In this document: positions 20,881 through 22,506 of the stretch, piece by piece
Numbering within the stretch: position 1 is the first letter of the stretch
Layout: each line of letters opens with the position of its first letter
NCBI GenBank assembly: GCA_016872915.1
Contig: VGYQ01000013.1
Location: 1 to 45,868 of the forward strand
Origin: Planctomycetota bacterium
Lineage (GTDB): Bacteria > Planctomycetota > Phycisphaerae > Phycisphaerales > SM1A02
Length of the DNA: 45,868 bases
Reading direction: 5' to 3'
Made by a program: the position numbers and the translations under genes
The notes under the pieces: model-generated
The model's input: only the letters and a program-made list of their open reading frames with translations
Database searches by the model: none
Told to the model about the DNA's origin: nothing

Positions 20881-22506
20881 ATGTCACCGAGCAAGTCCAG
20901 TTCCAAGCCAGCCGCGAAAGATGGTCCGCCCGTTGCCTTGTTCGGTGCGGACGATCCACTCACACCCTACGAGGTGTTCGCCCGCCGCTACCGGTCACGC
21001 ACCTTTGGCGAGGTCGTGGGGCAGGAGACGATCGCACGCACGCTGCAGAACGCCATTGCTCTGGGACGGACAGCGCACGCGTATCTCTTCTGTGGAACGC
21101 GGGGGGTCGGCAAGACATCCATGGCACGCATTTTTGCTCGGGCTTTGAATGCCGTGGACTCGTTGTCGCAGCAGGATGCGATCGCCGACTCGATCATGCG
21201 CGGTCAAGATCTCGATGTGATCGAAATCGATGGTGCGAGCAACCGCGGTGTCGATGATGCGCGCGATTTGATCGCAGGTGCGGGGATGGCGCCCGCACGG
21301 AGCCCTTACAAGATTTACATCATCGACGAAGTCCACATGCTGACGCAGCCCGCGTTCAACGCGCTGCTGAAGACGATGGAGGAGCCGCCTGCCCATGTGA
21401 AGTTCATCTTGTGCACCACAGAGCCGCATAAGGTCCCGGCAACGATCCAGAGCCGTTGTCAGCGATACGACTTCAAGTCGATCCCGACGCAGGCGATCGC
21501 CGGGCACCTGCGCGCCGTGCTGCAACGAGAGTCGGTGACGGCAGATGAGGCGGTCATCGTGCAGGTGGCGCGGCTTGCGAATGGCTCGATGCGCGATGGA
21601 CTCAGCCTGCTCGATCGTCTTGTAGCCGCCGCGAGTGGGCATGTGTCGGGGGATCTGGCGCGTGATGTGCTTGGGTTGCCCGATGAGGAATTGTTGGAGC
21701 GGGTCATGGCAGCGATCGCAGCATGCGATCCTGCGGCTGGTCTTGCCGCCGCAGGGGAACTGCTCGACCACGGGATGTCCTGTGACCATGCACTCGACAC
21801 CATTGCGGCACGACTGCGTGATGCGCTCCTGATCCTGCTGAGTGGTACGGGAGCGCATCATGTGGATCTGCCTGACGAGGCCAAGCAGCGGCTCGCCGTA
21901 CATGCCGCCGCGTTCGACGCGCCCGCCCTCGTGCATCTCATCGCGCTCTGCGACGCATCGGTCCGGAGCGTTCGCTCGTCTGCTGTGCCGCGTGCGATCT
22001 TCGATGCGGTTGTCGCACGACTGTGCATGAGCGAGCACTTCCTCAAAGCCACGGCGCTGCTCGCTGGTGAGACGCCGGCGACTGCACGCGGTGGTGACGC
22101 TAAAAAAAAAGTAGTCAGAGAGAGTGAGCCCACCGCCTCGGCTGGCAGTCGCGCAGCGACCTCCACACCGAACGCGGGTGCGGTGACTGGAGCGGCACCG
22201 CGAGCAGCTGCGCCGATTGCGCCGGTTGGCGGCGGCGCCGCAGACGCCGCGTCCGCACCCGCCTCAGCACCAACGCTGCGTCCCGCGGTCTCCGCCGCAC
22301 CTGCCGCTGCAACAACAGCGGCGCGCCCTTCGGCATCGTTGTCGCCCGCACGCAAGGAAGAAGCAGATGCGATTCGGAAGGATCCCATGGTCCTTGAGAT
22401 CGCCGGAATCCTCGATGCCACGGTTGGTGGCGTTTCGTTGCAGGGCGATATCGGTGGGGGAGGCCAGCCCACGAGAACTGCACGTGAAAGCGAGTCCGCG
22501 CCATGA
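20881..22506 (+). CDS. dnaX: DNA polymerase III subunit gamma/tau
   Basis: DnaX is the clamp-loader ATPase that opens and loads the sliding clamp. The 541-residue protein has Walker A GTRGVGKTS (near residue 70), IDEVHMLT (Walker B), TTEPHK, the arginine finger in SRC, and GSMRDGLSLLD. The normal four-cysteine zinc module after ARALN is absent; the segment reads ALNAVDSLSQQDAIADS. A run of nine A at codons 408-410 is a probable slippage site for making a short gamma form. The remaining 130 residues are a Pro/Ala-rich tail. ATG at 20881 is chosen because the in-frame start at 20833 lies inside the SRP RNA. recR overlaps the stop by 4 bases. Confidence 0.96.
   Translation: MSPSKSSSKPAAKDGPPVALFGADDPLTPYEVFARRYRSRTFGEVVGQETIARTLQNAIALGRTAHAYLFCGTRGVGKTSMARIFARALNAVDSLSQQDAIADSIMRGQDLDVIEIDGASNRGVDDARDLIAGAGMAPARSPYKIYIIDEVHMLTQPAFNALLKTMEEPPAHVKFILCTTEPHKVPATIQSRCQRYDFKSIPTQAIAGHLRAVLQRESVTADEAVIVQVARLANGSMRDGLSLLDRLVAAASGHVSGDLARDVLGLPDEELLERVMAAIAACDPAAGLAAAGELLDHGMSCDHALDTIAARLRDALLILLSGTGAHHVDLPDEAKQRLAVHAAAFDAPALVHLIALCDASVRSVRSSAVPRAIFDAVVARLCMSEHFLKATALLAGETPATARGGDAKKKVVRESEPTASAGSRAATSTPNAGAVTGAAPRAAAPIAPVGGGAADAASAPASAPTLRPAVSAAPAAATTAARPSASLSPARKEEADAIRKDPMVLEIAGILDATVGGVSLQGDIGGGGQPTRTARESESAP
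22102..22110 (+). other. A9 slippage site in dnaX
   Basis: Nine consecutive A form three AAA codons in frame, after GCT and before GTAGTC. One extra A gives AGT AGT CAG AGA GAG TGA, and one fewer gives AAG TAG. Both alternative frames stop at once, producing a protein of about 410 residues that ends just after the clamp-loader core. The arrangement resembles the transcriptional slippage site of Thermus dnaX and the ribosomal frameshift site of E. coli dnaX. Confidence 0.8.

Follow-up and report, generated by a model that had tools for sequence, protein, structure and literature searches.

A candidate Thermus-type slippage tract in the dnaX gene of a planctomycete and its apparent interchange with ribosomal frameshift sites among relatives

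Described routes to the two DnaX proteins

The dnaX gene of Escherichia coli relies on −1 programmed ribosomal frameshifting at the slippery heptamer A_AAA_AAG, together with a Shine–Dalgarno (SD) sequence and a stem-loop. In Thermus thermophilus, the transcriptional slippage in dnaX was reportedly described by Larsen in 2000. The excerpts of Baranov 2005 (PMC1088944) and Atkins 2016 (PMC5009743) also describe the slippage in Thermus; the excerpt of the latter links the two lysine tRNAs of T. thermophilus to it and has Caulobacter forming gamma by proteolysis of tau. According to the excerpt of Antonov 2013 (PMC3711429), two-ORF poly-A dnaX genes comprise 17 fs-genes in 12 genera, no planctomycete being named in that part of the paper. 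No treatment of planctomycete dnaX slippage was found, by title or opening abstract, among the matches listed for mostly open-access literature.

The locus presented here lies in a stretch of planctomycete DNA of 45,868 nucleotides (the window; contig VGYQ01000013.1 of assembly GCA_016872915.1). With E. coli dnaX it shares the predicted outcome and the position of the site after the core, and its heptamer-bearing relatives, taken as a set, share the downstream structure and the SD-like pairing. Unlike in E. coli, the window has A9 and not A6G, reads AAA AAA AAA GTA, so that the in-frame heptamer is A_AAA_AAA and not A_AAA_AAG, and shows no downstream structure, and the 28 heptamers counted in its relatives all end in AAA. 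As in T. thermophilus, on the evidence of the excerpts cited above (PMC1088944, PMC5009743), the A9 is on the sense strand, tau is encoded in one ORF, close stops are present in both non-zero frames, two lysine tRNAs are found, and gamma is predicted to be a truncated tau. It differs from T. thermophilus in phylum, in the kind of evidence (RNA heterogeneity and products in a 1:1 ratio were reported there, whereas the present case is built on sequence), and in its relatives, which carry A10 more often than A9 and in some cases have two ORFs. The type outlined in the excerpt of Antonov 2013 (PMC3711429), in which the zero frame encodes gamma and a shift at A7–A10 leads on to tau, is matched by 22 of the A8–A10 relatives, whereas the window gene itself has a single ORF. 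The Caulobacter route would give the same product pair but without slippage at the nucleotide level.

The window gene and the conservation of its tract

The features of the gene, in window coordinates, are as follows.

20881..22506, forward strand: dnaX, full-length tau reading frame, 541 aa plus stop (translation; TIGR02397; Pfam)
21652..22038, forward strand: domain III of gamma/tau, residues 258–386, the last Pfam domain before the tract (PF12169)
22093..22097, forward strand: GGTGA, SD-like, upstream of the tract, possible ribosomal stimulator (anti-SD duplex)
22102..22110, forward strand: candidate A9 slippage tract, AAA AAA AAA, K408–K410 (sequence; conservation in the genus as A9/A10)
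22112..22114, forward strand: TAG, predicted end of a 410-aa gamma after loss of one A or gain of two (sequence, frame table)
22125..22127, forward strand: TGA, predicted end of a 415-aa gamma after gain of one A or a −1 ribosomal shift (sequence, frame table)
22366..22443, forward strand: conserved C-terminal motif DAIRKDPMVLEIAGILDATVGGVSLQ, in tau only (by eye in the alignment; tail homology)

The product matched the NCBIfam model TIGR02397 (dnaX_nterm) over residues 30–382 with 364 bits (cut-off 250), and Pfam placed the nucleotide-binding domain at 47–201 and the lid at 206–253, ahead of domain III; in the tail beyond residue 386 no Pfam domain was called. Since the TIGR02397 match ends at 382 and domain III at 386, both alternative stops fall just past the clamp-loader core, as the first-pass annotation had proposed. 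Its reading of the nine A as three in-frame AAA codons, in a gene where AAG would be expected for lysine, was also borne out: the codon-phased context is GCT AAA AAA AAA GTA, and AAA accounts for only one of the eight lysine codons in the preceding 1000 nt of the gene. With eight A, the lysines are followed directly by TAG, again as anticipated; with ten, the frame continues as KKKSSQRE to the TGA. The stop proposed for an inserted A is therefore present, but the distance of eight codons given for it is correct only if the three lysines are counted, the foreign codons being five. The tract is the only run of A8 or longer on either strand of the window and the only A9/T9 in the whole assembly (2,086,306 bases, 108 contigs), in which A7 gives 45 overlapping matches.

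We consider it probable that the A9 is a programmed slippage site from which a single dnaX gene makes both tau and gamma by transcriptional slippage of the Thermus type. RNA polymerase would slip on the run; mRNAs with nine (or 9+3n) A would be translated into the 541-aa tau, and those with 8, 10 etc. A into a gamma of about 410–415 aa ending just past the core ATPase and domain III. Slippage itself, its assignment to transcription over translation, the gamma:tau ratio and the entry of gamma into the clamp loader are what we infer within this scheme.

Conservation was followed from the genus to the class. In the genus, 19 genomes were searched, the window's included; G017 gave weak matches only, and L013 and L015 end before the site. 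All 16 genomes reaching the site, again with the window's, have A9 (5) or A10 (11) at the same place amid diverging flanks, so the tract is kept in related dnaX genes. Tau is in the zero frame in 12 of them; in the other four (L012, L014, L016 and L020) a zero-frame stop immediately follows the run, and one extra base is required to read on into the conserved tau tail. As L012, L014 and L016 group together in a single clade (SH-aLRT 99%), their two-ORF state looks inherited and not like three assembly errors; L020, which stands apart from this clade, could be an assembly error. The idea that the dnaX run is the sole A9 in every genome of the genus had to be dropped, since this is true in only 6 of the 16 (G000, the window's own genome, and G002, G003, G009, G010 and G018), the other ten having further A9 runs.

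The family survey gave a match in 72 of the 81 sampled genomes (G072 and G056 left out: contig edge, partial match) and the class survey in 127 of 130, with 19 places skipped in favor of a same-genus genome and one such stand-in, L232, too short. In all, 189 loci were read: 18 from the genus, 67 from the family and 104 further ones from the class, 17 of these from the window's order. Eighty named loci, 31 of them in detail, were listed separately and are outside the 189. The site consists of A8–A10 in 144 loci (114 A10, 29 A9 and one A8) and of an in-frame −1 heptamer in 28; 11 have neither and six end before the site. One or the other device was thus found in 172 of the 183 readable loci, and a broken tract without any other site, the pattern that would run counter to the first-pass reading, was mostly absent. 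The heptamers comprise 21 A7 runs, all beginning at codon position 3 and so read as A_AAA_AAA, and seven GGGAAAA, which were searched in the G_GGA_AAA phase only. Runs of A9, like those of A10, were seen in every codon phase, and no run at the site exceeds A10 among the 189 loci. Elsewhere in the 172 site-bearing loci, A9+/T9+ runs number three in 570,924 bases, and within the 1000 nt that precede the site, lysine is encoded by 507 AAA and 1272 AAG codons.

Heptamers were found only in the window's family (20 of 67 loci) and order (8 of 17 order-mates), while the remaining 87 class loci yielded 78 A8–A10 runs, no heptamer, eight loci without a site and one too short. The simplest reading is a poly-A ancestor, with heptamers arising within the order. 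The 11 relatives lacking a recognised site are single-ORF genes (L235, L245, L252, L254, L258, L259, L268, L271, L154, L167 and L174). L154 carries the only G_GGA_AAG seen, whose −1 frame stays open and which was not counted as a heptamer, and L259 has the heptamer AAATTTT with a −1 stop two codons on. These relatives may have lost gamma, may rely on proteolysis, or may use an unrecognised signal; by analogy, proteolysis of the Caulobacter kind might operate in some of them.

A phylum-wide trait was rejected. Among 81 loci from other classes (surveyed without seven same-phylum places, six from sampled genera and one at a contig end), 65 have no A7+ near the site, two are too short and 14 have A7+, six of the latter being A9–A11 with both frames closed. 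Given the 65 loci without A7+, the device is a trait of the window's class and scattered elsewhere; the relatives that bear a name are MAGs of Phycisphaerales and Phycisphaerae. Occurrences probably outside the class include Aporhodopirellula aestuarii strain ICT_H3.1 (A10, L073) and Gemmata sp. IIL30 (A9, L083), and Opitutaceae and Bacteroidetes MAGs have A9/A10 with both other frames closed. Other arrangements were also noticed in the other planctomycete classes. In L312, L316 and L315 the zero frame stops soon after the core and there is no A7+ run; L312 and L316 have a tau-like tail with the C-terminal motif in the −1 frame, and L315 has its long open frame in +1; no shift signal was recognised in them. 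L295, L304 and L306 have an in-frame C_CCT_TTT or C_CCT_TTC past the core and meet a stop in the −1 frame 0–2 codons later. These may be additional sites of ribosomal frameshifting in dnaX that use another kind of slippery sequence.

Polymerase, ribosome or chance

A programmed gamma/tau device at this position is strongly supported by the comparison among relatives. The first-pass annotation had likened it to the solutions of both Thermus and E. coli, a likeness which the relatives support; frame closure and the absence of downstream structure fit the Thermus type better.

The first rival explanation, which we regard as unlikely, follows the E. coli dnaX model: the ribosome would shift by −1 on the A_AAA_AAA contained in the A9, with the SD-like stretch upstream acting as a stimulator. 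Any A9, whatever its phase, holds an in-frame A_AAA_AAA, so such a shift is possible, and in the window the −1 frame has the TGA close by. The 18 nt upstream of the tract form an anti-SD duplex of −9.4 kcal/mol, within the best 3% of same-gene controls (z −2.1); GGTGA as the exact pairing position is the analyst's reading of the upstream sequence, and its letters are altered in the nearest congeners, L004, L005 and L019. The use of heptamers, with downstream structure as a set, in the same family and order also speaks for a ribosomal shift, as do the 19 of 22 two-ORF A8–A10 genes whose tau tail sits in the frame that such a shift enters. Against it stands the length of the runs, which are 9–10 where seven A would suffice, along with the state of the reading frames and the folding downstream.

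As for the frames, polymerase slippage enters both other frames, so both should be closed, whereas after a −1 ribosomal shift only one matters. Six of the 172 loci (two A8–A10, four heptamer) were left out of this test because their tau frame is unclear. In A8–A10 genes, both non-tau frames are closed within 18 codons in 136 of 142, whereas sampling elsewhere in these genes predicts 22.5; a floor of 0.05 on the chance of each gene raises this to 23.9 and gives a nominal P of 2e-114, an optimistic value since the loci are related. In heptamer genes, both are closed in 4 of 24, against a prediction of 1.9. When single-ORF genes alone are considered, the frame out of reach of a −1 ribosomal shift has a close stop in 119 of 122 A8–A10 genes versus three of nine heptamer genes. 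GC content does not explain the closure, which for this frame was found in 57 of the 60 single-ORF A8–A10 genes with a GC of at least 0.617.

The two sets also differ in their surroundings. The mean z of the downstream 60-nt fold is +0.21 in A8–A10 loci (n=144) versus −1.61 in heptamer loci (n=28), 68% of the latter lying in the lowest tenth of controls; in the window it is +0.55, with no stem-loop signal. The upstream anti-SD pairing has a mean z of −1.38 at heptamers (50% in the best tenth) versus −0.25 at A8–A10 runs, which depart little from controls in either measure. The E. coli K-12 dnaX control had its A6 in phase 2, as expected, and met a stop after one codon in the −1 frame and after 12 in the other, both inside the 18-codon limit; its fold is weak (z −0.77) and its anti-SD z is −1.82. 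Because this ribosomal case closes both frames and folds weakly, the fold test is of only moderate sensitivity, and the tests separate sets and not single genes. An upstream hairpin as a stimulator of slippage was tried and rejected, the 40 nt upstream having a fold z of −0.84 in both sets alike; this folding may reflect the GC-rich linker.

Lysine tRNAs were considered as well. The window genome has tRNA-Lys genes with CUU and UUU anticodons according to ARAGORN. Consensus patterns in 79 family and order genomes found CUU in 71 and UUU in 78, and an ARAGORN check of 17 stretches from 8 genomes confirmed 9 CUU and 9 UUU genes. The idea that the presence of tRNA-Lys(CUU) determines which of the two mechanisms is used was not supported, since its pattern is present in both sets alike (26 of 28 heptamer genomes, 45 of 51 A8–A10 genomes). 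The presence of both lysine tRNAs does not decide the mechanism; it fits heptamers ending in AAA, although AAG is the commoner codon before the site.

The second rival is ribosome sliding on poly-A, with termination in either alternative frame, which appears very unlikely here. It would explain the closure of both frames without a stem-loop, and sliding on iterated AAA is documented: in one construct series of Koutmou 2015 (PMC4363877), as given in the excerpt, three AAA lysines already sufficed for truncated product. With the K3 inserts in the E. coli cell-free system of the same excerpt, however, truncation was slight for A9 and A10 and robust for A11, and the genus, family and class runs stay at or below A10 (one A11 was found in another class, L305). 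The end of the runs at A10, together with the little truncation from A9/A10 in that study, favors transcription, a ribosomal contribution being possible.

Less probable still is a contingency locus, in which slippage at the DNA level would turn tau on and off between cells. Congeners do differ in run length and in the frame of tau, as described above. Yet the zero frame is open in 122 of the 144 A8–A10 genes, above the random-phase level, the two-ORF state is common to related species, and every cell would presumably require tau. Finally, a chance, functionless run in a lysine-containing linker, to which the poor conservation and the basic residues of the linker would lend themselves, has next to no probability left and is already contradicted by conservation, the run being unique in the window genome, fixed in position, set among genes preferring AAG, closed in both frames and mostly missing from the other classes of the phylum.

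Two-ORF genes, the surroundings of the locus and the interchange of site types

Thermus-type slippage in the single-ORF window gene would be needed for gamma, and in some relatives for tau. The zero frame stops in 22 A8–A10 and 19 heptamer genes, 41 of the 172 with a site. The frame of tau was assigned by tail homology, that is, by matches of the C-terminal 70 residues of single-ORF relatives to the tau frame of other loci, with 120 of the 122 single-ORF A8–A10 tails as queries. Among single-ORF genes, this placed tau in the zero frame for 120 of 122 with A8–A10 (two unclear) and for all nine with a heptamer, and by homology the tau tail lies in another frame in 37 of the 41 genes with a zero-frame stop. 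In two-ORF A8–A10 genes it is in the +1-nt frame (equal to the −1 ribosomal frame) in the 19 mentioned above and in the −1-nt frame in the other three; in two-ORF heptamer genes it is in the +1-nt frame in 15 of 19 and in the other frame in none, with four unclear. The zero-frame stop with the tau tail elsewhere means that in the 22 A8–A10 genes the long product would depend on slippage. As the frame of tau varies among the two-ORF genes, the zero frame of the DNA can be any frame while the product pair stays. Annotators should be warned that the 41 genes may look broken.

Of the three −1-nt cases, L188 and L242 are clear as assembled, and L243 was discounted for ambiguous bases after the site. 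L188 (A10) can reach tau only if one A is lost or two are gained, changes that a −1 ribosomal shift cannot provide; L188 is a single MAG, so an assembly error is possible, and L242 is also a single MAG.

Two further features of the locus were noted. Zinc-binding cysteines are usual in DnaX, and they are missing in the window protein (residues ~80–112, window 21120–21220) and in its relatives. Between Walker A and the next conserved stretch, 0–1 Cys was found in all 17 genus rows, all 67 family rows and all 17 order rows, and at least 4 Cys in 85 of the 87 other class rows, the exceptions being L227 and L228. The zinc module seems to have been lost in the window's order. The stop of tau overlaps, as ATGA (window 22503–22506), the start of the next gene, which we take to be recR-like by comparison among relatives. 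If the two were coupled, only tau-finishing ribosomes would feed recR, and slippage might also set the level of RecR. Coupling to recR as a general feature was rejected: an ATGA-type overlap was seen in only 11 of 166 genes, while in 42 no recR was seen, in three there is no room, and in three no start.

The distribution of the two site types was placed on DnaX trees. On a quick maximum-likelihood tree of 101 genus, family and order loci, parsimony requires at least 9 changes between A8–A10 and heptamer and at least 13 between one and two ORFs, counts which are approximate because 34 of the 98 inner branches have support under 80%. FastTree with 188 rows (without the short L019) gave 9 mechanism changes and 25 changes of ORF state. 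L160 (A_AAA_AAA) and L164 (G_GGA_AAA) belong to one genus, and L212 (A7, two-ORF) adjoins L223 (A10, one-ORF) in the tree. On balance, we favor the view that within this one order dnaX has alternated repeatedly between transcriptional slippage and −1 ribosomal frameshifting, and between making gamma by slippage and making tau by slippage.

The window site itself would be a further case of the Thermus type, and the interesting part would be that one mechanism is exchanged for another while the two products stay the same. The role of gamma in E. coli is called controversial in the excerpt of Atkins 2016 (PMC5009743). The maintenance of a putative gamma-making site, by either of two devices, in nearly all readable loci is evolutionary evidence that gamma is selected for. 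If the proposed alternation is true, selection keeps both gamma and tau while the decoding step is free to change, and close relatives in this order allow the RNA-polymerase and the ribosomal routes to the same protein pair to be compared.
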